DNA of 64,000 nucleotides from positions 496,001-560,000 of the forward strand of contig JAUYVI010000001.1 in NCBI GenBank assembly GCA_030715195.1. Reading direction: 5' to 3'. The notes below the pieces were generated by a model, which was not told the DNA's origin, made no database searches, and was given only the letters and a program-made list of their open reading frames with translations. The DNA is from Dongia sedimenti. GTDB taxonomy: Bacteria > Pseudomonadota > Alphaproteobacteria > Dongiales > Dongiaceae. Made by a program: the position numbers and the translations under genes. Shown here one piece after another: positions 38,612-49,948 of the stretch. Each line of letters begins with the position of its first letter. Within the stretch, counting starts at the first letter, position 1.

Positions 38612-39337
38612 CTAAGCCGCGGCGCCTTGGGCTCGCCGTCTCCGCCAGCCGACCAAACCCAGGCCGCTCAGCGCCGAGATGAACAGCGGCAAGGCGGCGG
38701 GAATCGGCGTGGTGCTGACCGCGACGGTGCCGATGGAGATGCTGTCGAGCGCCAGTCCTTCGATCAGGCTCGTATTGAAGGGCCCATCGGAACCCAGGCT
38801 CTGCAGCCGCACTTCGTCGAATGTGGCATCCGAGAAGCCATAGAAGCCGAACGCGCGCAACGGCTTGTCGGACGTGTAGAAATTGACACTGCCCTGATCG
38901 ACGACCGATCCGTTGTCCAGCAGCTGGAACTGAAAGGCCGGCGCGACACCCGGGTACCAGCCGCTCCCCGCCAGGAACTGAATGGCGTGAAAATCGGCCC
39001 CCGACGAGAGCCTGATCGCGGTGTAGCCGAAGCCGCCCCAGGCCTGATACCAGCTGCGCTGTCCCTCTTTTCCGGCGATCGACGAGGTGGTCCAGGTTCC
39101 GTTCCCGGTGCCGACATACTCGACGTCTATTCCACCCTCGGAATACACGGTGTTCTGCGGGAGATTGGTGCTGCTTGGAAGGCTTTCGAACCCATCGAAG
39201 TTGGTGACGGTGCCGAGAAAGCTCGACGTGTGAACGGTCGTCGCCGAAGCTTCGGTGATGGTCAGCCCCAGGATGATCGAAGCTGCCGCGCCGACGATCC
39301 GTGCGCGAGTCTTTAAGTCCTGCTTGCGTGCCATCAT
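38612..39337 (-). CDS. VPLPA-CTERM sorting-domain protein (first of two)
   Basis: A 241-aa exported protein. A Sec signal peptide (about residues 10-32, ending EASAT) leads to a beta-rich domain. The C-terminus is a sorting signal of the PEP-CTERM/VPLPA class: a variant IPAALPLF, then a hydrophobic helix (ISALSGLGLVGW) and RRRR. Such proteins are processed by exosortase and are often associated with exopolysaccharide. No exosortase gene is in the window. The frame continues upstream, but the two adjacent ATGs at 39335-39337 and 39332-39334 fit the signal peptide. Confidence 0.82.
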   Translation of the reverse strand: MMARKQDLKTRARIVGAAASIILGLTITEASATTVHTSSFLGTVTNFDGFESLPSSTNLPQNTVYSEGGIDVEYVGTGNGTWTTSSIAGKEGQRSWYQAWGGFGYTAIRLSSGADFHAIQFLAGSGWYPGVAPAFQFQLLDNGSVVDQGSVNFYTSDKPLRAFGFYGFSDATFDEVRLQSLGSDGPFNTSLIEGLALDSISIGTVAVSTTPIPAALPLFISALSGLGLVGWRRRRAQGAAA

Positions 39338-39605
39338 TGCCCCACGTTTGTAATGCCCCAACTCGCAGCCGCGAGTCCTTCGGACTTCGCGTCTGACCCT
39401 TCGTGCGCGCCACCGGCGCAATGGTTCGACGCTTTGCGGAAAAAGATTCGCGCGCGGCAGAAGATAGCCGTCTGTGGCGCTGGACCAGCCTGCGGGGTCA
39501 ATCGCTATGCCGCCCAGACCAAGCCGATTGCCGCGTGGTCCAAGACAAATCGAACATATTGACCTATGGTTCAATCTCCAGGGCGGAGGAACGCGAGGGG
39601 TGGTG

Positions 39606-40595
39606 ATGAGTTCTGGCGTGCTGGAATTTTCAACCGACGCTCTTCCCGAACGCGATCGGGTTTCCATCTGGCGGGAAGAGTTCGCCCGTGGCGTCGTCCA
39701 GATGGATGTTCGCCAGTTGGACGAAGAGGCCTTTCGCAGCGAATCCCGGATTCGCATTCTTCCCGATCTCAAGATCTGGTCGTCCTCGGTGACCGGTTGC
39801 ACGTTGGAGCGAACGCCCTCGCTGGTGGCCGACGGCGACGACAGCATCGTGCTCGGCATCATCAAGCGGGGCCGGACCGCGGTGGTACAGCGCGGCCAGG
39901 AGACGATTTTCAGCGAGGGCGAGGCGTTTCTCTGGGCGAGCGATACGGTCGGGACCTATCGCAGTCCCGGCGAGCAGGATTTCGTCACCTTCGCCTTTCC
40001 CCGGGAAAACCTCGCGCGCACGGTCGCCGATGTCGACAAGGCGCTGCTGAAGGCGATCCCCGCCTCGACGGAGGCGCTGCGTTTGCTGGTCGGCTACGCC
40101 GATCTGCTGCAGCACGCCAAGGCGCCGACCGAGCCGGAAATCCTTGCGCTGAGCTCCGCTCATATCCACGACCTGGCGGCGCTGGCGCTCGGCGCCACCC
40201 GCGACGCGGCGGTGGTCGCGAAGGGCCGCGGCCTGCGCGCCGCGCGCCTGCGGGCGATCAAATCCGACATTCTCGCCAATCTTTCGCGGCCGGGCCTCGC
40301 CGTCGCCGAACTCGCCGCACGGCACGGCATCTCGCCGCGCTATATCCGCGCCTTGTTCGAAAGCGAGCAGACGAGCTTCACTGAATTCGTGCGCGAACAG
40401 CGTCTGCGGCGCGCCCATCGCATCCTGTGCAGCACCGCCTCCGCCGGCCGCAGCATCGCCGCGATCGCATTCGATTGCGGCTTCGGCGATCTTTCCTATT
40501 TCAACCACAGCTTCCGGCGGCGATTCGGCACGACTCCCACGGACATTCGCAATCACGCGCACGGGAATTCCGCGGCGAATTCCCCCGGTCGCTGA
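39606..40595 (+). CDS. AraC-family transcriptional regulator
   Basis: A 329-aa protein. The N-terminal part (about 20-190) is an AraC-binding-like cupin domain of the type seen in regulators of the transcription activator NphR kind (for example LPERDRVSIWREEF). The C-terminal HTH pair covers about 225-320: LAVAELAARHGISPRYIRAL and IAAIAFDCGFGDLSYFNHSF, then FRRRFGTTPTDIR. GAGGGG before the ATG at 39606 supports the start. It lies between the two VPLPA-CTERM genes; the ECF-like sigma gene follows on the same strand. Confidence 0.88.
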   Translation: MSSGVLEFSTDALPERDRVSIWREEFARGVVQMDVRQLDEEAFRSESRIRILPDLKIWSSSVTGCTLERTPSLVADGDDSIVLGIIKRGRTAVVQRGQETIFSEGEAFLWASDTVGTYRSPGEQDFVTFAFPRENLARTVADVDKALLKAIPASTEALRLLVGYADLLQHAKAPTEPEILALSSAHIHDLAALALGATRDAAVVAKGRGLRAARLRAIKSDILANLSRPGLAVAELAARHGISPRYIRALFESEQTSFTEFVREQRLRRAHRILCSTASAGRSIAAIAFDCGFGDLSYFNHSFRRRFGTTPTDIRNHAHGNSAANSPGR

Positions 40596-41398: not shown

Positions 41399-42103
41399 TC
41401 AGAATTTGGCCCTGCGCCGCCGCCAGCCCAGGAATCCAACGGTGCCGAGCGCCGAGACCATCAGTGGCAACGTCGCGGGGATCGGTGTCGTAGAGATCGG
41501 TACGGCGGCAACGGTCAGCGCGCCGAAATCAAGGACCCCATGGAAATTGCCGAAAGACGCTGTCGCGATGTCGAACGACAGGGATGCCGTGCACGCGACG
41601 CAGCTTGATATCGTGATCGCGGTAAAGATCGAACCGGGGAACGAGGACCCCGGCGCTGTCGAACTCAAACTGGCCTGCGCTTGCTCAAACTGCGGCGACG
41701 TCGGGGCGACCTGGTGATTGATGATCGCATAGGTCGGGACATTGGAGACAATCTCCCGGTTGCCGGTCGGCGAGCTGGGACCGCTGAAGGCGTGGCTCTG
41801 GCCGTTGATGGTGAGGTTCGCCGTCACGCCGCCGAAAATCTGATCGCCATTAAAACCCGGCACCGAGAATGTGGAATAGCTCCCCGCGGTCGAATCCATC
41901 GTGAAGACCAGGGTGTAGTCGGAACCCGCCAAATCGGCGCCCACCGTGCCGAAGACTCCGCTGCTGTCGATGGCGCTGCGGACCGTTCCGGTCCAGGTCG
42001 CGGTCATCGTGGTCGCGGCTGCCGGCGCTGCGGCCCCCAATACAGCGATCAGCGCGAGACCAACGAGTTTGGCGGAGAGGCGCGCGCAAATGGTTGCATG
42101 CAT
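41399..42103 (-). CDS. VPLPA-CTERM sorting-domain protein (second of two)
   Basis: A 234-aa exported protein. Signal peptide about residues 8-30 (LVGLALIAVLGAAAPAAA). The mature part is Ser/Thr/Gly-rich beta structure (TATWTGTVRSAIDSSGVFG and others), with a CVAC pair. The C-terminus matches the sorting signal: TPIPATLPLM, a hydrophobic helix, then GWRRRRAKF. It resembles the first VPLPA gene only at the ends, so they are not close paralogues. Confidence 0.82.
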   Translation of the reverse strand: MHATICARLSAKLVGLALIAVLGAAAPAAATTMTATWTGTVRSAIDSSGVFGTVGADLAGSDYTLVFTMDSTAGSYSTFSVPGFNGDQIFGGVTANLTINGQSHAFSGPSSPTGNREIVSNVPTYAIINHQVAPTSPQFEQAQASLSSTAPGSSFPGSIFTAITISSCVACTASLSFDIATASFGNFHGVLDFGALTVAAVPISTTPIPATLPLMVSALGTVGFLGWRRRRAKF

Positions 42104-42619: not shown

Positions 42620-43390
42620 ATGCCGACCCTCACCGACGAGATCAAGACCTTCATCGTCAAAGGCTTAGCCTGCTACGACACCCCCTCCCAGGTGGCCGAG
42701 GCCGTCAAAGCCGAGTTCAACATCGAGATCACCCGACAGCACGTCTACGCCTACGACCCCAACGCTTCGCAACACATGGCCCCGCGCTGGCGAGAACTCC
42801 ATGCGGCGACCCGCGCGGCGTTGCTGCGCGAGCTGGCCGAGATCGGCATCGCCCATCGGGCGGTCCGCCTCCGCAGATTGGACCGCCTGGCCAGCCGCTC
42901 CGAACGCCACAACGTCACGACCGCGCTCAAATGCATCGAGATGGCGGCCAAGGAGTGCGGCGGCATGTATGAAAACCGCAAGCCGATCGTCGCGCAGCCC
43001 ACCGCGCCCCAGCCCGCCCTGCCGCAGTATGCGACGCCGGAGCCGCCCGCGCCGCAGCCTGCAGCGGCACAGGCCGCCATGCCGGAGCGCGCCGCCCCAC
43101 AGGCGGTCGCGCCACGGCCGCAGGCGACAGAGCTCCAGCCCACGACGCCGCGGCACGCCGTGCCGTTGCCCGTCCTGCCTCAGCCCGATCGGCCGGCGCC
43201 TTCCTGTCCGCGGCCGCTGGCCGTGCTGGCGCTACCGCCACAGCCTCCGTCGTCTTCCGAAGCCCGGCCGCTCAGCCGGGAGGAACGCTTCCGTGCCTGG
43301 GCCCGTGACCGGGATGCGCGGGACCGGGTGGTCGCCGCCGAGACGCTCTCGGACAGCGGGCGTATTTCGACCGCGCCGCCGGCTTCGTGA
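42620..43390 (+). CDS. DUF2280-domain protein, probably phage-derived
   Basis: A 256-aa protein. Residues about 1-118 match DUF2280: LTDEIKTFIVKGLACYDTP, VKAEFNIEITRQHVYAYDP and AHRAVRLRRLDRLASRSER. DUF2280 occurs in phage proteins near the small terminase. The rest (about 125-225) is a low-complexity Pro/Ala/Gln tail with repeated PAPQPA-like phrases. No other phage gene is nearby, so it looks like a domesticated or stranded gene. AGGAAGAG before the ATG gives good initiation context. Confidence 0.8.
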   Translation: MPTLTDEIKTFIVKGLACYDTPSQVAEAVKAEFNIEITRQHVYAYDPNASQHMAPRWRELHAATRAALLRELAEIGIAHRAVRLRRLDRLASRSERHNVTTALKCIEMAAKECGGMYENRKPIVAQPTAPQPALPQYATPEPPAPQPAAAQAAMPERAAPQAVAPRPQATELQPTTPRHAVPLPVLPQPDRPAPSCPRPLAVLALPPQPPSSSEARPLSREERFRAWARDRDARDRVVAAETLSDSGRISTAPPAS

Positions 43391-43413: not shown

Positions 43414-44592
43414 TTATGCGCGGTCGAGAATCCGCGAGACGCAGTTCAGCGATCCGAGCTGATCGGCCAGCGGCAGGAAATCGCCGCCGCGCACCACCTC
43501 GAAGCCGAGCCCTTCCCAGACCGCGGCGTTGGCATCGTCGGCGGCTTTCAGCTCGGGCCAGGGATCGAAGCCGTATTCCGGCAGGAAGACGCGGCAGCCG
43601 CCCGCTTGGCCCATGCACTCGACCCAGCAATTGTTGGCCGAGGCGTAGAACCATTCGCGCAGCTTCGCCTCCGGGTCGTCGAAATAGACGAAGGGCAGCG
43701 GGTTGCGGTGGACGTCATAGCCGCGGAGCCGCAGGCCGAACTCGATCTGCTCGAAGGCCTTGATCGGGAAGCCCTCCGGCAGCGGCAGGCCGATCAGCTT
43801 GCTGGCCCAGACCGGATCGCCGAGCAGGATGCGCTGGGTCCCGTCCGGCGCGGGTCCGGCCAGGGTCATGAACATGTCGAGATGGAAGATCGGCTGGCGC
43901 GATCCGTCGGCGGCGATGCTGCGGTCGATGTCCTGGCGCCAGCTCCAGTCGCCCGGCGTCCGCTCGAACCGGACCGGCCCGCGCCGTTCCAGCGGCGCGC
44001 AGGCGATGACCTCGATGGCGCGTCCGCTGTCGATCCCGGCTTCGCAAAGGTCGGCGCCGACGAAGCAGGTCTTGCCGTCCACCAGGATATTGCCGCCCGG
44101 CTGCGCCACGCCGAGCGCGATGCTGCCGTTCAGCCCGCAGGCCAGTCCGGCGGCGTCCGCGGTGTAGTCGTCCGGGTCGTGGGATCCGAGCACCGCGGTC
44201 GAGCCGTCGGCATTGCGCATGACCGTCACCCGATCCTGGGCCCAGGGCCAGAGCGCGGCGCCTTGCGGCGCGGCGATCACCGCGATCTCCGCGGCGAGGC
44301 CGAGACCGTCCACCAGCGCGCGGAGTTCCGCCGCGTCAGCTTCGTGAACGGCGAGCGAGATGCGCCGGAACCCGCCGGCCAGCCGCAGCAGGCGTTCCAG
44401 CATGCCCTGCTCGAAGCCCGGCAGGCGCCGCGTCGCCACCATGAAGACATGGTTGATCCGGCCCCGGGCGCTCGGCAGCAGTGCGCGTTCGCCCTGGGCC
44501 GGCAGGGCGGCGTCGGGCCTGCGCGGGAGCACGCCGCGCGGCCGGGGTTCGGCTGTCTCCGGACACCGCGTGAAGTTTCTCTGCTTCATCAT
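43414..44592 (-). CDS. Guanidino-group-modifying enzyme (agmatine/peptidylarginine-deiminase-like)
   Basis: A 392-aa protein of the five-fold beta/alpha propeller superfamily. The catalytic positions are visible: Asp120 in WPWAQDRV, GGN at 167-169, His237 and Asp239 in HLDMF, and Cys384 in LNCVSRIL. The late segment YASANNCWVECMGQAGGCRV and VFLPEYGFDPWP are also superfamily-like. Members hydrolyse or transfer the guanidino group of arginine, agmatine or peptidyl-arginine. It starts 7 bases after tfuA, so it is in the YcaO operon. I infer an arginine-modifying step on the cluster's substrate; free-substrate hydrolysis remains possible. Confidence 0.82.
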   Translation of the reverse strand: MMKQRNFTRCPETAEPRPRGVLPRRPDAALPAQGERALLPSARGRINHVFMVATRRLPGFEQGMLERLLRLAGGFRRISLAVHEADAAELRALVDGLGLAAEIAVIAAPQGAALWPWAQDRVTVMRNADGSTAVLGSHDPDDYTADAAGLACGLNGSIALGVAQPGGNILVDGKTCFVGADLCEAGIDSGRAIEVIACAPLERRGPVRFERTPGDWSWRQDIDRSIAADGSRQPIFHLDMFMTLAGPAPDGTQRILLGDPVWASKLIGLPLPEGFPIKAFEQIEFGLRLRGYDVHRNPLPFVYFDDPEAKLREWFYASANNCWVECMGQAGGCRVFLPEYGFDPWPELKAADDANAAVWEGLGFEVVRGGDFLPLADQLGSLNCVSRILDRA

Positions 44593-44598
44593 GCGGCG

Positions 44599-45330
44599 CT
44601 ACTCATCCTTCACCGCATGCAGCAATTTCATCCACTGCGTGGTCTCCTGGAAGTCCCAGGCATGGACCGGCTGCGGAACGCGGTCCGGCTGGGCGCGCAG
44701 CCAGTCCAGCACTTCCAGTGCGTCGAGACGCTTCTGGTCGACCGCGTTGGCCTGGAACCAGGCGCCGGCCGCCTGTGCCTCGTCGGGATCAAGATCGGCG
44801 CTGCGGCGGATGATCTCCGCATAGGTCCGTTCCGAGTAGTGGATCTGCCGCGCCGCTTCGGTGAGGCTGCGGACCGTGCCGGTCCTCACCACGCCCTGGC
44901 GGTCGAGCAGCGACAGGGTCGGCTCGACATTCACCATGGGCTCGGTCAGCGGCAGGAAGTTCAGCTCTTCCGGCGCGTGAAGCTGCGCGACCTCGGCATC
45001 ATCGACGATCTCGCCGGTGGCGTAGCGGCGATAGATCGTCCCGATCCCGGTCATGCCGTAGGCGGCGCACTCGGCGGCGCGGAGCGCGCCCATGCTGGCG
45101 CCCCCGGCGACGGGGAGGCCGAGCGAAAGGGCATAGAGCACTTCCTTGTGCCAGGGCGAGGCACTCTGGTCGAACAACCCGTCCACCAGGGCGATCGCGG
45201 TCACGCCGCTGCGCGCGGCACGGGCGATGTCGCCGCAGCGGGCGGGTCCGGCCCAGACGATGTCGTCCTGACGCCTGCGAAGGAATGCGAGATCCCGATG
45301 CAGGCTGGGACCCACGAAGATCACTTTCAA
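44599..45330 (-). CDS. TfuA-like protein
   Basis: A 243-aa protein. The TTG start at 45330-45328 overlaps the ycaO stop (TTGA); the N-terminus MKVIFVGPSLHRD is as in the family. The conserved core GGASMGALRAAECAAYGMTG and GTIYRRYATGEIVDDAEV is the TfuA hallmark. TfuA proteins work with YcaO enzymes in trifolitoxin production and in backbone thioamidation (McrA glycine in methanogens, thioamitides). The short C-terminal extension has an Asp/Glu-rich helix. No close methanogenesis or known thioamitide genes are present. Confidence 0.9.
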   Translation of the reverse strand: MKVIFVGPSLHRDLAFLRRRQDDIVWAGPARCGDIARAARSGVTAIALVDGLFDQSASPWHKEVLYALSLGLPVAGGASMGALRAAECAAYGMTGIGTIYRRYATGEIVDDAEVAQLHAPEELNFLPLTEPMVNVEPTLSLLDRQGVVRTGTVRSLTEAARQIHYSERTYAEIIRRSADLDPDEAQAAGAWFQANAVDQKRLDALEVLDWLRAQPDRVPQPVHAWDFQETTQWMKLLHAVKDE

Positions 45331-46628
45331 TGCAGTCGTCCGATCAGGGTCGCCAGTGCGCGCGCCCCCATCTTCGAACGCGGCCCGGTCAAGTCCGTCT
45401 GCAGGCCGGGAACGATCATCCGCACCACACTGATGCCGAAATCGTTCTTGATCGGCACGGCGATCACCTGCTCGATCCCGCGCCGCTTCAGCTGCGCGAC
45501 GATCGACCGGATTCCGCCGCCGAGGTCGGGCAGGGGACGCGCCGGAGCCGGCGGCACATTCGGATCGATGAAGGCCAGCAGTTCGACGATCGCCTTGCGC
45601 TCGGCGCCTTCGGCCTCCTCGTACATCTCCGGAAAGAGATCGTCGCGCGAGCCGGTGATGCGCGTGATCCGCGACTGCGCCGCCTCGGCGATCGCCTTCA
45701 CGATCGCCACCGGGCGCGAGACATGGCAGGCGGAGCCCGCGGAATGCGCGTAGCGCGGCACCAGCGGCGCGTTCGCCATGGCGCTGTCGCTGATGATCGC
45801 GGTGAAGGCCGGCAGGCCGATATCGCTGGTCATGTCGAGCAGTGTCAGGTCGAATCCCGCGGCGCGAATCCGCTGCTCGAACTGCAGCGTCTCCATTCCG
45901 TCGCTCGCCGCGACGCAGGCGACGCGCTGGCTGAGCTCGGCGGTCGACATCAGCTCGAGCAGCGCCGAAGCATCGCGCTCGATCAGCTCGCAGAGGCCGT
46001 GCAGGATCGCGGTTCTGAAATCGAAGCCGGAGGCCAACCCGTCGGTCGAGACCTGGAAGGCACCGCTGAAACCCGGCGGGTCGGGGCGATAGTCCGCGCC
46101 GACCAGCGACCATGGCACGTGCACCAGCCGCTTGGCGGTGAGATCGTAGCCCTGCACCCAGGCCAGCGGTTGGCTTCGATTGAGCCGGTCGAGGCGGCAG
46201 CGCGTGGACAGGTCCAGCGCCATGACGGGCGTGCCGGAACCGGAGAGTTCCGCCAGGCTCGCCCATTTCAGGCTGCCCGGCAGCCGCTCCGCCGCCGCCA
46301 GCTCGAGCGATTCCATGATGGCGGAGATGAAGGCCTCGTCCTTGAGCGCGCCCTTGCCCTGGCTGACCGAGAGCGAGCGCGAGTTCGGCCGGAAGGCAAG
46401 CGCCACCGGAATCCCGATGCGGTCGAGACCCGTCACTTCCGCGACCCGGGTGATGCCCGCGGCCGCGAAATGCGGACGGACCCGCTGGACGAGGTTCCGC
46501 AGGTCCGCCGCACGGTCGTCAGCGGCGGGACGATGGGCGTCCCACCGCTGACCGTCACAGGCGCTCTCGATCAGCAAACCGAGCGGCGCTCTGGTCTCCC
46601 CCTCCTGGACTGTACTGTCTGCCGTCAA
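45327..46628 (-). CDS. YcaO-domain enzyme (TfuA-associated)
   Basis: A 433-aa protein. A TTG start at 46628-46626 overlaps the previous gene's TGA; GAGGAAAAG lies just before it. YcaO enzymes use ATP to activate a peptide-backbone amide. The ATP/Mg helix IMESLELAAAER is at about 104-115, TDGLASGFDFRTAILHGLCEL leads to LIERDAS near 215-221, and the C-terminal block SVVRMIVPGLQ is present. The C-terminus is IGRLH and lacks the Pro-rich PxPxP end of azoline-forming YcaOs. With TfuA next door, a thioamide-type reaction is the more likely chemistry. The substrate is not evident. Confidence 0.9.
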   Translation of the reverse strand: MTADSTVQEGETRAPLGLLIESACDGQRWDAHRPAADDRAADLRNLVQRVRPHFAAAGITRVAEVTGLDRIGIPVALAFRPNSRSLSVSQGKGALKDEAFISAIMESLELAAAERLPGSLKWASLAELSGSGTPVMALDLSTRCRLDRLNRSQPLAWVQGYDLTAKRLVHVPWSLVGADYRPDPPGFSGAFQVSTDGLASGFDFRTAILHGLCELIERDASALLELMSTAELSQRVACVAASDGMETLQFEQRIRAAGFDLTLLDMTSDIGLPAFTAIISDSAMANAPLVPRYAHSAGSACHVSRPVAIVKAIAEAAQSRITRITGSRDDLFPEMYEEAEGAERKAIVELLAFIDPNVPPAPARPLPDLGGGIRSIVAQLKRRGIEQVIAVPIKNDFGISVVRMIVPGLQTDLTGPRSKMGARALATLIGRLH

Positions 46629-46990
46629 ACTTTTCCTCGGTCGACAAAATCTTGAATCAGCGGTGCCAGCGGACTCTTGCTCTGGAACAGCTGCTCGATC
46701 GGATGCGAACGCTTGATCATCACCAGCTTGCCGAGTTGGCTGGTGGAGAACGACAGGAAGACGTTGCGGGAGACCGCGTTGTCCTTCTTGACGTTGTCCA
46801 CCACGCTCTGCGCCAGGGCATCGCGACTCTTTTCGTTCGACGCGTCGGTACCCGCGGCGTCGCCCTGGAACATGCTGACGATGCTCAGCCACGCACTCTT
46901 CGGCACCGGAACCGCGGTTCCCTGTGCCTTGCTGATGAACCAGAGGTCGTTGTCGTCGTCGAGGTTCCCCACCAGGAAGTAGTCGGACAT
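46625..46990 (-). CDS. 121-aa protein opening the YcaO operon (function unknown)
   Basis: The first gene after the box at 47054-47071. The ATG at 46990 follows GGGGGATGAAAGG. It begins SDYFLVGNLDDDNDLWFIS and has VPVPKSAWLSIVSMFQGD and SFSTSQLGKLVMIKRSHP. There is no cysteine, no signal peptide and no repeated core. The stop overlaps the ycaO TTG. It may be a substrate carrier, a substrate itself, or an adaptor for the YcaO/TfuA enzymes. Nothing like a RiPP recognition element or a classic leader/core split is certain. Confidence 0.7.
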   Translation of the reverse strand: MSDYFLVGNLDDDNDLWFISKAQGTAVPVPKSAWLSIVSMFQGDAAGTDASNEKSRDALAQSVVDNVKKDNAVSRNVFLSFSTSQLGKLVMIKRSHPIEQLFQSKSPLAPLIQDFVDRGKV

Positions 46991-47053
46991 CCTTTCATCC
47001 CCCTTCGTTTGAGCGGTCTGATTCGCAAGACCAAGAAGACGGTAGAGAAAGGG

Positions 47054-47071
47054 GCGTGACTGGGGCGTGAC
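47054..47071 (-). promoter_or_regulatory. SARP-type direct-repeat box upstream of the YcaO operon
   Basis: On the minus strand GTCACGC, CCCA, GTCACGC: two identical heptamers in 11-base phase. It lies 63 bases upstream of the 121-aa gene and points toward it. Heptamer direct repeats with 11-base phase near the -35 site are the established binding mode of SARP-type activators. The same core occurs at 49389-49406. Confidence 0.65.
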
Positions 47072-47122
47072 CGGTTGCAGACGCCGGACTCGGTTGGATA
47101 AGAGTTTGATCGGATTGGGCTT

Positions 47123-47144
47123 GCCGCCGTGCGGCGACGGCGGC
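47123..47144 (-). terminator. Hairpin after the SARP-like regulator gene
   Basis: GCCGCCGT (47123-47130) pairs with ACGGCGGC (47137-47144) around a 6-base loop, 9 bases after the regulator's stop. No U-run follows on the minus strand, so this is only a possible terminator separating the regulator from the YcaO operon. Confidence 0.4.
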
Positions 47145-47153
47145 CTTGCGGCC

Positions 47154-49172
47154 CTAGTCGAGCCCGGCGCGCTTCAGCCCGTCGATGAAGTGCTCGGTGT
47201 CTTCGGGATTCCGGTTCGGGACGATGGCCCGGATCCGCTCGGCCTGGAAATCGGGATAGACGCTGCGGACCACCCGGCTGTAATGGCGGGCAAGCTCCAG
47301 ATCGCCCAGTTGTGCGGTGCAGGCGGCGAGCAGCCGGGCCGTGGCGGGGCTGTCCTCGACCGGACGCAGCGCCTGGAGTGCGGCCTTATAGTCGCCGAGT
47401 TGATAATAGATGCTGCCCAGGGCCCAGGAATACTCGTCCGGCGGAATCGGATTGAGCTCGATCGCCTTGTTGAACATGTTCAGGCCCTGCCGCGGATCGC
47501 CGGAATGGGCGAGAGAATCGGCGTAGCCTTCCAGGATATCGGCATCGTGCGGGTTCAGCGCCATGGCCTGGGCGAAGTCCTGCAGCGACTCGTCGTGGCG
47601 GCGCAGGTAGAGATTGGCGTAGCCCCGCTCCCGCAGCGCGCGCCCGTCATGCGGATCGAGCGACGCCGCCTTGGAGGCGAGATCCACCGATTCCTTCAGC
47701 AGGTCGTTCTCGATCATCCCGCGCACGACCCATTCGTAGGTCATGGTGCGCGCCAGGCCGACCACGGCGGCCGGATAGTTCGGCACCAGCGTGAGCGCTT
47801 CCTTGAACATGCGCCGGGCGCGGCGGATCGACTGCAGGTCGCTGCCATGCAGCAGGCGACGGCCTTCGAGCAGATTGCGATAGGCGGTGAACTCGGTCGC
47901 GGGAATCGGCGTCCGGACCTCGGCCTCGTCGATGGCGTTCACCATCGAGCGCAGGATGAGGCCGGTGACCCGCTCGAAGGTCCCGCCCAGGGTCGCGAAA
48001 GTGAAGTCGGTCTCGGTCGCCCACAGCACTTCGGAATTGCTGACATTGGTCAGGCGCACGCCGAAGCGATGGCCGTGCGTCGCCGGCATCAGCGAGGTGG
48101 CGACGGCGTAATCCACATCCAGCACCGCCATCGCCTCTTGCAGGTTGCCGCTGCCGAACGCGACCGAGGCGCCGGAATGGGCCGCGACCACGGCAAAGCG
48201 CCGGAACCGGCTGAGGCCGATGGTCAGGTCCTCGACGAAGCCCAGGGCCATCATCCGGGTCGCGTCGTCGGAAACGACGCTGATCGGCGGCAGGATCAGC
48301 ACGACGGGAATCTGACGCTCGGACTTCTGCGCCGGGCGGGTCTCGCGGTCGCGCGCGATCGGCTGGATGACCGATTGCTCCAGCGCCTCGGCGTCGCGAT
48401 GCCGGAGCGCCGCCGCCAGATCCATGGTCTGGGCGCTCGGCGGGACCCCGAGCTCCGCGGCGAGGGTGCGCTTGCAACGGCTGAAGATCCGCAGCGCAAA
48501 GCCGCGATCGCCGCGCGCCGTGCAGATCCGCATCATGGCGCGATAGGCCGCCTCTTCGGTCCGATCGACGTCGAGCACCTTCAGCGCCAGGCGCCAGGCC
48601 GCGTCGAAGCTGCCGGGATCGAGCGCCGCCTCCAGCGCGTCGCGCGCCGCATCGACGAAGCGGTCACGGATTTCCTCGCGATTGGCCTCCATCCATTCAT
48701 CGACCGCCGCCTCGTCGAAACCGAAGCCGTCGAGCAGGCGTCCGGTCCACAGCGCGAGCAAGGCCTCGCAGCGATTGGCGGCCGACTGCCGGTCGGTCCC
48801 GCCCCGCTGCAGCGACATGAAGGCGCCGTAGTCGATCGTGCAGGCGGCTTCATTGATGCTGACCACGTCGCCGCGGATGTCGAGCAGCACCAGATCGAAT
48901 TTCTGGCCGATCTTGAGGATGCGCGCGATCAGCTGGCGCAGGTTGGCGTTGGCCTTCTCGCGGTCGAAATCGCCCCAGAGGATCGACCGGATCTGGCTGC
49001 GGCTTGCACTTTTATTCTCAGACGCGGCCAGAATCGCCAGCAGGACAAATGCCTTGTCCGGCAGCGACTGGGTCTCCCCGTCCACCACGAAACGCGGCGG
49101 CCCGAAGAGCCGGACTTCCACCTTTGCGGCGGCGTCTGATTCGGCGGATTTCGACGAGATTTCAGTCCCCAT
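47154..49172 (-). CDS. SARP-like regulator: winged helix, BTAD and TPR domains
   Basis: A 672-aa protein from ATG 49172 (a TTG at 49343 would add 57 residues of low coding quality). An OmpR-type winged helix covers about 17-100 (EVRLFGPPRFVVDGETQSLP, SRSQIRSILWGD, ANLRQLIARIL). A BTAD follows (about 108-255: DYGAFMSL ... FSRCKRTLAAELGVPPS). A FlgO/TolB-N-like domain (about 295-425: VLILPPISVVS and VEDLTIGLSRFRRFAVVA) and then about five TPRs lead to the C-terminus. SARPs activate secondary-metabolite and RiPP clusters in actinobacteria. Here the gene is flanked by two matching boxes, one in each neighbouring promoter region. No signal-sensing pocket is recognisable. Confidence 0.88.
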   Translation of the reverse strand: MGTEISSKSAESDAAAKVEVRLFGPPRFVVDGETQSLPDKAFVLLAILAASENKSASRSQIRSILWGDFDREKANANLRQLIARILKIGQKFDLVLLDIRGDVVSINEAACTIDYGAFMSLQRGGTDRQSAANRCEALLALWTGRLLDGFGFDEAAVDEWMEANREEIRDRFVDAARDALEAALDPGSFDAAWRLALKVLDVDRTEEAAYRAMMRICTARGDRGFALRIFSRCKRTLAAELGVPPSAQTMDLAAALRHRDAEALEQSVIQPIARDRETRPAQKSERQIPVVLILPPISVVSDDATRMMALGFVEDLTIGLSRFRRFAVVAAHSGASVAFGSGNLQEAMAVLDVDYAVATSLMPATHGHRFGVRLTNVSNSEVLWATETDFTFATLGGTFERVTGLILRSMVNAIDEAEVRTPIPATEFTAYRNLLEGRRLLHGSDLQSIRRARRMFKEALTLVPNYPAAVVGLARTMTYEWVVRGMIENDLLKESVDLASKAASLDPHDGRALRERGYANLYLRRHDESLQDFAQAMALNPHDADILEGYADSLAHSGDPRQGLNMFNKAIELNPIPPDEYSWALGSIYYQLGDYKAALQALRPVEDSPATARLLAACTAQLGDLELARHYSRVVRSVYPDFQAERIRAIVPNRNPEDTEHFIDGLKRAGLD

Positions 49173-49486
49173 CACTCTCGATGGATCGCGGGGTGGCGCT
49201 TTGTCAATACCGCCGGCCGAACCCGGACTTTCACCGCGTGCGCCGGCGTGCTGCAACGCGGCCTCGCTGCAACACTGTGGCCGCCCGGTCGGAAGCGCCG
49301 CCGCCTTCATCGCAGATCTCATAGACTTGTTTCCTAGCTCCAAGTATTCGGTTGATTACAGTCAACAACGGGTTAACACGCGCCGCTTTTCACGCCCCAG
49401 TCACGCGCGCCTTGGTCTCCTCAGCACGCGGGTGAAGCGACCCGGCCCGAAGCCGGGCCGGATCAGTCAATCAAGGGGTGGACGTC
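49173..49486. other. Divergent control region between the regulator and the 153-aa gene
   Basis: About 314 bases. It contains the box at 49389-49406, an inverted repeat GTTGATTACAGTCAAC near 49352-49367, and a hairpin CCCGGC..GCCGGG at 49441-49457 just before the next gene's ribosome-binding site. The inverted repeat could overlap the regulator's own promoter, which I cannot place with confidence. Confidence 0.5.
49389..49406 (+). promoter_or_regulatory. SARP-type direct-repeat box upstream of the 153-aa gene
   Basis: TTCACGC, CCCA, GTCACGC on the plus strand: the same 17-base core as the YcaO-operon box, oriented toward the gene at 49487 and 80 bases before it. Finding one core at two promoters on opposite strands, each pointing to its gene, strongly suggests a shared activator. 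Confidence 0.65.
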
Positions 49487-49948
49487 ATGCAGATGCTCAG
49501 AACGGAAGCGCACGAGACGGCGGAGAAGCGGGTCGAATCCAAGGTCAGCCCGATCGGGATTTCCGTGCGTTACACGCCGGAAGCACTGGGCTTCCGGCGC
49601 GCCTTGCAGGCGCTGAGCGCCGCCTATGCCAGGGTCGGCAATGCGCTGAGCGATCGGCTGCAGCACGCCACTTCAGATCTCTCCGAGCTCACCATGCTGG
49701 GCGCGAGCTATGGCTGGGTGGTCGACCGGCGCCGCCTGGTGCAGACCTATCTGGAAGCCGAGCCGGCGGTGATGGCCTATGCCTGCGCCGATTTCGGCGT
49801 GCCCGAGCAGATCCAGTCGCTCGCGGAAGCGGCCGGGGAACTGGCCGGCGAATCCCACTCCCTGTTCTCCGCGCTCGGACTGCTCAATTACATCGATCAA
49901 GAGCTCGGCTGGGCCGCGGTCGGCGGCGCCCCGGCCGGAAACGCCTGA
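49487..49948 (+). CDS. 153-aa protein of the boxed regulon (function unknown)
   Basis: AAGGGG at 49473-49478 supports the ATG at 49487 over a GTG at 49478. It is a soluble, mainly helical protein: TPEALGFRRALQALSAAY, YARVGNALSDRLQHA, SYGWVVDRRRLVQTYLEAEP. The C-terminus reads ELGWAAVGGAPAGNA, where the GG and a short Ala/Pro/Gly tail faintly recall a leader/core boundary. It has one cysteine, in YACADFG. No family recognised. The upstream box ties it to the YcaO operon, so it could be the substrate, an immunity or a delivery protein. Confidence 0.7.
   Translation: MQMLRTEAHETAEKRVESKVSPIGISVRYTPEALGFRRALQALSAAYARVGNALSDRLQHATSDLSELTMLGASYGWVVDRRRLVQTYLEAEPAVMAYACADFGVPEQIQSLAEAAGELAGESHSLFSALGLLNYIDQELGWAAVGGAPAGNA

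Follow-up and report, generated by a model that had tools for sequence, protein, structure and literature searches.

The locus described here raises the question of whether a YcaO-TfuA pair and a guanidino-modifying enzyme could be devoted to one and the same small bacterial protein. It lies in Dongia sedimenti, within an analysed stretch of 64,000 nucleotides (the window), and the six genes listed for it by an earlier sequence-only reading are all present. A minus-strand block encodes, in nearly overlapping succession, a 121-residue protein (P0004, 46625..46990), the YcaO protein (P0003, 45327..46628), TfuA (P0002, 44599..45330) and a pentein-type guanidino enzyme of 392 residues (P0001, 43414..44592). 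Ahead of this block, also on the minus strand, stands the gene for a BTAD/SARP-like regulator with TPR repeats (P0005, 47154..49172), and a 153-residue protein to which no family was assigned (P0006, 49487..49948) is encoded on the plus strand. The 121-residue gene is the first of the operon and its stop codon overlaps the TTG start of the YcaO gene in the sequence TTGA, a junction repeated where the YcaO stop meets the TTG start of TfuA, whilst a gap of 6 bp separates TfuA from the pentein gene. PADLOC gave no match for P0001 to P0006, and a defence system was rejected.

The YcaO domain of P0003 is unambiguous (PF02624, 213.1 bits against a cut-off of 25.7; TIGR00702, 182.1 bits against 75.65), as is the assignment of P0002 (PF07812, 135.7 bits against 30). 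The best NCBIfam scores for both proteins came from the models for McrA thioamidation, TIGR03266 and NF033432, which require 365 and 235.2 and gave 189.7 and 176.9 respectively; since both cut-offs were missed, a McrA-type target was ruled out. The nearest solved sequence to P0003 is MJ1094 (E 7.7e-23), which we take to be a thioamide-forming YcaO of a methanogen. A C-terminal PxPxP motif is a feature of azoline-forming YcaOs, and on reading the sequences it is absent from the C-termini of the six YcaOs aligned. YcaO domain, adjacent TfuA and absence of PxPxP are the features by which a TfuA-associated (thioamidation-type) YcaO is predicted, and P0003 with P0002 has all three.

The pentein carries the residues attributed to it, Asp120, GGN166-168, His237, Asp239 and Cys384, and the numbering is correct. 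W117, D120, G166, H237, D239 and C384 are invariant in all 11 rows of an alignment that includes P0001, and Gly167 and Asn168 are almost so; Asp, His, Asp and Cys in that order are presumably the catalytic residues of the guanidino-modifying pentein superfamily. The 11-row profile and four canonical agmatine deiminases could be aligned over 263 columns (E 5.4e-5, probability 66.5), and a Vibrio protein that matches P0001 at 1e-11 scores 39.5 bits for PAD_porph (cut-off 25), linking P0001 to that family. P0001 itself has no Pfam or NCBIfam match above cut-off; PF04371 matches none of the six members of the pentein set and is reached solely by relatives outside the operons. The genome has its canonical agmatine deiminase elsewhere (C1:752174-753157, PF04371, 379.9 bits), as all 17 genomes of the order have a copy, and because of this separate copy a housekeeping agmatine deiminase was rejected for P0001, which disposes of the plain agmatine deiminase that had been named as the outcome fatal to a joint system. 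Neither P0001 nor its profile has a real match among solved structures, and the structure model of P0001 (pLDDT 48.3) was too poor for the protein that headed its Foldseek results, human PADI6 (E 2.2e-3, prob 0.63, TMq 0.24), to count as evidence.

Conservation of the deiminase-like gene beside ycaO-tfuA in relatives had been set as the other test of the proposal, and it was found. Regulator, small protein, YcaO, TfuA and pentein occur in identical order in five of the seven genomes of the genus (TfuA is interrupted by a stop in one of the five), whilst the other two have no match to YcaO, TfuA or pentein, so that the gene set is all-or-none within the genus. In the four operon-bearing relatives an HTH gene follows the pentein. 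The same order recurs on two rhizobial plasmids, of Rhizobium daejeonense and Neorhizobium sp.; a sample of 398 genomes of the phylum contained two genomes with the operon and one weak match (E 3.7e-4), and a search of viral contigs found no relative.

The enzymes are also found apart. BLAST found no pentein in the stretches around 11 of 16 TfuA places (one on a contig of just 4.6 kb), nor is there one in the three annotated Rhizobium BTAD operons read, a count that excludes the unannotated record L070; conversely, relatives of the pentein occur without neighbouring YcaO or TfuA. The window pentein is distant from those of its genus relatives (E 1.3e-9 to 2.8e-14), and that such diverged enzymes both stand directly after TfuA argues for functional coupling. 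Taking agmatine deiminases as the outgroup (support 54/38) neither established a single origin of the operon penteins nor led to its rejection. Among those compared, the YcaO (40%) and regulator (35%) nearest to the window's belong to pentein-free Rhizobium operons, and the nearest BLAST match of the window pentein is a Paenibacillus protein standing without YcaO; from these affinities, a pentein may have been recruited at least twice into a backbone of SARP, small protein, YcaO and TfuA, with its own small protein each time.

The small protein is less uniform than the genes around it. P0004 has no Pfam or NCBIfam model above cut-off, and its slot is filled by a protein of 136-143 residues in all six related pentein operons, to which hhalign gave it a homology probability of 0.4. 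Local alignment of the two did no better than shuffles (p 0.54 and 0.51), and global alignment gave p 0.0175 when end gaps were penalised and 0.22 when they were free. The first 22 residues (p 0.003) and a shared motif, R-x(2,4)-P-[IL]-x-x-[AL]-[LF] (reached in 0.0018 of shuffles), are suggestive only, because both were selected after inspection. The relatives' small protein was detected solely together with the operon, in two of 72,556 plasmid records (one being the query's own) and in three of 385 genomes of the class; the window's own genome gave no match. For P0004, four weak matches to Leisingera transporters on plasmids (E 0.06 to 1) were judged to be chance. Neither P0004 nor the small-protein profile has a real match among solved structures, and a structure model of the small protein (pLDDT 52.0) was too poor and gave no structural match at E <=0.001. 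On reading, the small proteins have no clear leader/core pattern or repeats. No protease or exporter is encoded in the window operon or in the two annotated rhizobial plasmid operons (the plasmid gene table being incomplete), so that neither the window nor the two plasmids show the arrangement expected of a RiPP cluster, in which a leader-core precursor is accompanied within its operon by an exporter or a maturation protease.

The regulator is SARP-like as proposed, with BTAD (PF03704) at 71.1 bits against a cut-off of 22.1 together with TPR models, although Trans_reg_C, the OmpR-type N-terminal DNA-binding domain, reached only 17.9 of the 26.2 required. Its start is probably the ATG at 49172 rather than the TTG of the longest open reading frame, which runs to 49343. 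The reported box, which precedes both the 121-residue and the 153-residue genes, is real: TCACGCCCCAGTCACGC occurs exactly at 47054-47070 on the minus strand and again at 49390..49406 on the plus strand. Before the 121-residue gene the SARP-type box, in which the 7-mer TCACGCC is repeated at 11 bp, covers 47053..47070 on the minus strand. With up to three mismatches the window holds three sites (the third with three) against 0.41 expected, and the 11-bp direct repeat of SARP type TCACGCCNNNNTCACGC has just two exact sites in the 6.13-Mb genome, both in this locus. Over the five genus loci, 10 sites were found against 3 for seven control spacings combined. SARP-type direct repeats are described as standing 8 bp ahead of the −10 element (PMC10936776), and at the 121-residue promoter a candidate −10 element, TACCGT (47039..47044, minus strand), lies 8 bp past the downstream repeat. 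The 153-residue promoter has the repeats with TCTCCT at the −10 place, and a hexamer starting with TA occupies that place in five of the 10 boxes.

P0006 has no Pfam or NCBIfam model above cut-off, its two Pfam rows being at chance level. Because the box precedes its gene here and in four relatives, the gene probably belongs to the regulon; a homologue adjoins the operon with the same kind of box in all four operon-bearing relatives, which with the window makes five of five genus loci. Beyond that homologue, three of the four relatives have an ABC-transporter-like gene set that on reading resembles sugar uptake. Weaker homologues, one with an internal stop, occur in the two genus members that have no operon. 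At the two rhizobial operon loci BLAST found no match to P0006, and hhalign found no homology between it and the rhizobial proteins of 73-88 residues.

The best reading, to be held tentatively at somewhat under an even chance, is a two-enzyme modification cassette acting on a small protein. The SARP-like regulator would activate two promoters, that of the operon from the 121-residue gene to the pentein gene and that of the 153-residue gene. The 121-residue protein, encoded first and putatively coupled in translation to YcaO, would be the substrate; YcaO would spend ATP to activate a backbone amide, TfuA would assist sulfur insertion to give a thioamide, and the pentein would next alter the guanidino group of an arginine on the same protein, most likely producing citrulline. 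The larger claim, that this is the first system in which a dedicated small protein receives both a backbone amide modification and a change to an arginine guanidino group within one SARP regulon, with a pentein recruited at least twice, is unlikely to hold in full, if far from negligible.

Several observations count against the cassette reading, namely that the operon, unlike many clusters for peptide products, has no protease or exporter, that P0004 is not detectably homologous to its counterpart in relatives, that TfuA-YcaO pairs and penteins exist without each other, and that in genus relatives the regulator-side box points away from the operon. The small protein might instead be a partner, in recognition or sulfur relay, with P0006 or a housekeeping protein encoded elsewhere as the target, in the way that other YcaOs act on McrA or ribosomal uL16. 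A length of 121-143 residues is large for a precursor, every genus locus has the box before P0006 or its homologue, and YcaO enzymes thioamidate folded proteins elsewhere (PMC5589413, PMC13063428); yet P0006 has no match at the rhizobial loci and homologues where there is no operon, and it is the small gene that leads the operon and overlaps YcaO. A partner role is unlikely, if worth keeping in view.

It is rather improbable that the pentein works on a free small molecule or serves another product, sharing regulation but not substrate with YcaO-TfuA. The thiovarsolin amidinotransferase, conserved in its cluster but deleted with production unaffected (PMC6511847), speaks for this and against the cassette reading, as do the pentein-free Rhizobium BTAD-YcaO-TfuA operons, but the position of far-diverged penteins directly after TfuA argues the other way. 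Still more doubtful is an ordinary thioamidated RiPP, whose long precursor would be trimmed to a short product by general proteases, the product leaving the cell with no exporter of its own: more than 500 TfuA-related clusters are reported for Rhizobium (PMC8120280) and Rhizobium operons of like layout hold a 46-47-residue protein in the small-protein slot, but neither leader/core pattern nor repeats are evident, and the operon has no protease or transporter.

The make-up of the conserved gene set suggests two alterations of a small protein, one of the backbone and one probably of arginine. If the joint reading of the cassette is true, the locus would offer a small and testable system in which a single bacterial protein receives two rare modifications under a switch of its own; the window, four genus relatives and two rhizobial plasmids together give seven operons for comparison. 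TfuA-YcaO work would then extend past short secreted peptides and into bacteria in which a survey counts more than 500 TfuA-related clusters for Rhizobium alone (PMC8120280).

Several known systems share part of this layout. Glycine thioamidation of McrA in methanogens likewise uses a YcaO-TfuA pair on a protein, but the window genes fall below its equivalog cut-offs, and to our knowledge that system has neither pentein nor SARP. Citrulassins are, as far as we know, lasso peptides made without YcaO-TfuA. Citrulline-bearing RiPPs from bacterial peptidylarginine deiminases are known (PMC13174530), and the citrulassin enzyme, compared by description, resembles the proposed role of the pentein in its PAD-type deimination of a RiPP arginine (PMC13174530, PMC12971885). 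The std cluster of Streptomyces thermodiastaticus places, with YcaO-TfuA, a thioamide beside ureido-bearing homocitrulline, but its ureido group comes from a carbamoyltransferase acting on lysine, not a pentein (PMC13174530).

The pairing of chemistries had been called unknown from any characterised system, and a literature search found no paper joining YcaO to agmatine deiminase and one joining it to arginine deiminase and RiPPs. That novelty needs qualifying, since the thiovarsolin (var) cluster of Streptomyces varsoviensis is a partial precedent, combining YcaO and TfuA with a precursor and, from the guanidino superfamily, the dispensable amidinotransferase VarS (PMC6511847). By the description in that source, it differs in being actinobacterial, in its short repeating precursor, in the pheganomycin type of VarS and in its ATP-grasp, heme-oxygenase-like and MFS genes. 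The BTAD-47aa-YcaO-TfuA-88aa-HTH operons on plasmids of R. beringeri, R. ruizarguesonis and R. phaseoli have no pentein and encode a protein of 46-47 residues in place of 121-143, but share with the window both the family of the regulator and the order of the genes.

On the minus strand the gene set runs from P0005, a BTAD/SARP regulator with TPR repeats, through P0004 (121 aa, outside any known family), P0003 (YcaO) and P0002 (TfuA) to the pentein-like enzyme P0001, with the four operon genes, P0004 to P0001, coupled by two TTGA stop/start overlaps and one 6-bp gap. P0006 (153 aa) is encoded on the plus strand, divergent to the regulator. The sequence-only reading was right about this gene set: the genes are present, and their order is kept in relatives. 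Its proposal of a joint system required the pentein gene to stand beside ycaO-tfuA in other genomes, and four genus relatives and two plasmids share that order. In the four relatives, the order is regulator, 136-aa protein, YcaO, TfuA, pentein and HTH protein, with a P0006 homologue adjoining. On the plasmids, one from Rhizobium daejeonense and one from Neorhizobium sp. NCHU2750, genes for a 143-aa protein, YcaO, TfuA, the pentein and an HTH protein follow one another in this order; a BTAD-type regulator lies upstream in Neorhizobium, and only the end of a homologous regulator in R. daejeonense, where the plasmid record stops. The operon is real and conserved, and its genes are apparently co-regulated. 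The tfuA of one genus relative (G004; L013 5539-6354) is broken by a stop codon, and may be inactive or reflect an assembly error.

Convergent to the pentein gene, a DUF2280 protein (42620-43390, plus strand; PF10045, 114 bits) carries a long proline/alanine-rich tail. Two further proteins (38612-39865 and 41399-42103, both minus strand) share the C-terminus TPIPA(A/T)LPL...GWRRRR, which resembles PEP-CTERM sorting signals.

A search of 143 genomes, the one with the window among them, gave matches to P0001 in 5, all from its genus, of which five of seven members are thereby covered; the remaining two have no match to YcaO, TfuA or the pentein. Relatives were found in 4/385 genomes of a class sample, all within the genus, and in 3/398 of a phylum sample, the third match being weak. 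A genome-contig search returned a single relative, in a Saprospiraceae genome, at a locus with no match to YcaO or TfuA. The operon is present in two of the six plasmid records that hold a P0001 relative, and no YcaO or TfuA annotation lies near the relative in the three read of the other four. Such plasmid relatives without YcaO stand ahead of a DNA/RNA non-specific endonuclease gene (Paenibacillus polymyxa, L030 8743-11881), close to an S-type pyocin gene (Vibrio maritimus, L032 8671-9837) and close to TIR-domain and type III-B CRISPR genes (Aureispira, L033 8215-9618), and may be effectors or defence parts. The P0006 family also occurs away from the operon, with P0006-like proteins (loci L049-L054) encoded once in each of the two operon-less genus members, one with an internal stop, and as a second copy in each of the four operon-bearing relatives.

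No Pfam or NCBIfam model matched P0001. Its identity as a pentein is based on residues W117, D120, H237, D239, N320, N321 and C384, invariant in an 11-row alignment with its relatives, on the match of this 11-row profile to four canonical agmatine deiminases (263 columns aligned, E 5.4e-5, probability 66.5), which is lost with the window sequence alone or the operon sequences alone as query, and on a Vibrio relative (E 1e-11) that exceeds the PAD_porph cut-off. The canonical WxRD reads WxQD in the operon enzymes. Overall, the sequence evidence points more to an enzyme of deiminase type than to an amidinotransferase, short of proof; the predicted structure (pLDDT 48.3) is too low in confidence to help. 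A canonical agmatine deiminase is encoded elsewhere in the genome.

The 7-mer TCACGCC is repeated at 11 bp upstream of both the 121-aa and 153-aa genes. The exact pattern has no third site in the genome and 19 more with one mismatch; a reversed control pattern has 5 sites in total, genome-wide. Across five genus loci (122,503 bp), TCACG-N6-TCACG occurs at 10 sites, two per locus, with 3 sites for seven control spacings combined; no such box was found at the rhizobial operon loci. In published SARP promoters the repeats are spaced by 11 or 22 bp, and 8 bp separate the downstream repeat and the −10 element (PMC10936776); PMC5930380 likewise gives the 11-bp spacing. At this 8-bp distance, a TA-starting hexamer follows 5 of the 10 boxes: the one before the 121-aa gene and, in each of the four relatives, the one before the P0006 homologue. 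The window's box before P0006 has TCTCCT there, and the four remaining boxes of the relatives also lack such a hexamer. In one relative (L012), the box falls within the longest P0006 ORF, so the true P0006 start must be later. The relatives' other boxes point away from the operon to a divergent gene of 264-270 aa (L010 12756-13550; L011 358-2933; L012 104-2580; L013 9935-10747), which suggests a wider regulon there; the case for the box acting directly on the operon is therefore strongest in the window. The divergent proteins had no Pfam match in the three scanned, and a histidine kinase follows the gene in the two scanned.

P0001 matches the P. polymyxa protein, which has no adjoining YcaO, at 8e-37 and the operon enzymes of its genus-mates at 1.3e-9 to 2.8e-14, values that come from searches of different method and scale. 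The window's YcaO (40%) and regulator (35%) are closest to a pentein-free Rhizobium operon, and its small protein is also unlike that of the relatives. Far-apart penteins, these affinities and the differing small protein would together fit a second, independent pentein pairing in the window. In the YcaO tree, the YcaOs of the other six operons group in a single clade (100/99) and that of the window is not firmly placed; the pentein tree is compatible with a single origin too (support 54/38).

The window's YcaO is closest to methanogen YcaO models and sequences, and the literature describes YcaO-TfuA pairs as carrying out thioamidation that depends on ATP and sulfur (PMC13174530). YcaO with its adjoining TfuA would most likely yield a thioamide, and the likeliest substrate would be the small protein, since it is encoded first in the operon and, in relatives, is found only with it. 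The pentein would then modify an arginine of this protein; an Arg before P-[IL] is common to all seven small proteins compared, a motif chosen after inspection. Two chemistries on one substrate, as the sequence-only reading had it, is a plausible interpretation. A second TfuA-YcaO pair of the same genome (L014, G000:C12:3877-6678) is divergently transcribed, with neither pentein nor SARP found by BLAST.

No published YcaO system with an agmatine deiminase, or with an arginine deiminase and a RiPP, was found in the literature searched (mostly non-subscription). A survey published in 2021 describes 613 families of TfuA clusters, with many clusters in Rhizobium, and in its main text the terms deiminase, BTAD and SARP never occur (PMC8120280). 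We rate the operon as a variant of the TfuA-YcaO systems. The thiovarsolin cluster likewise pairs YcaO and TfuA with a further enzyme, there an amidinotransferase, which was dispensable (PMC6511847), and here a pentein.
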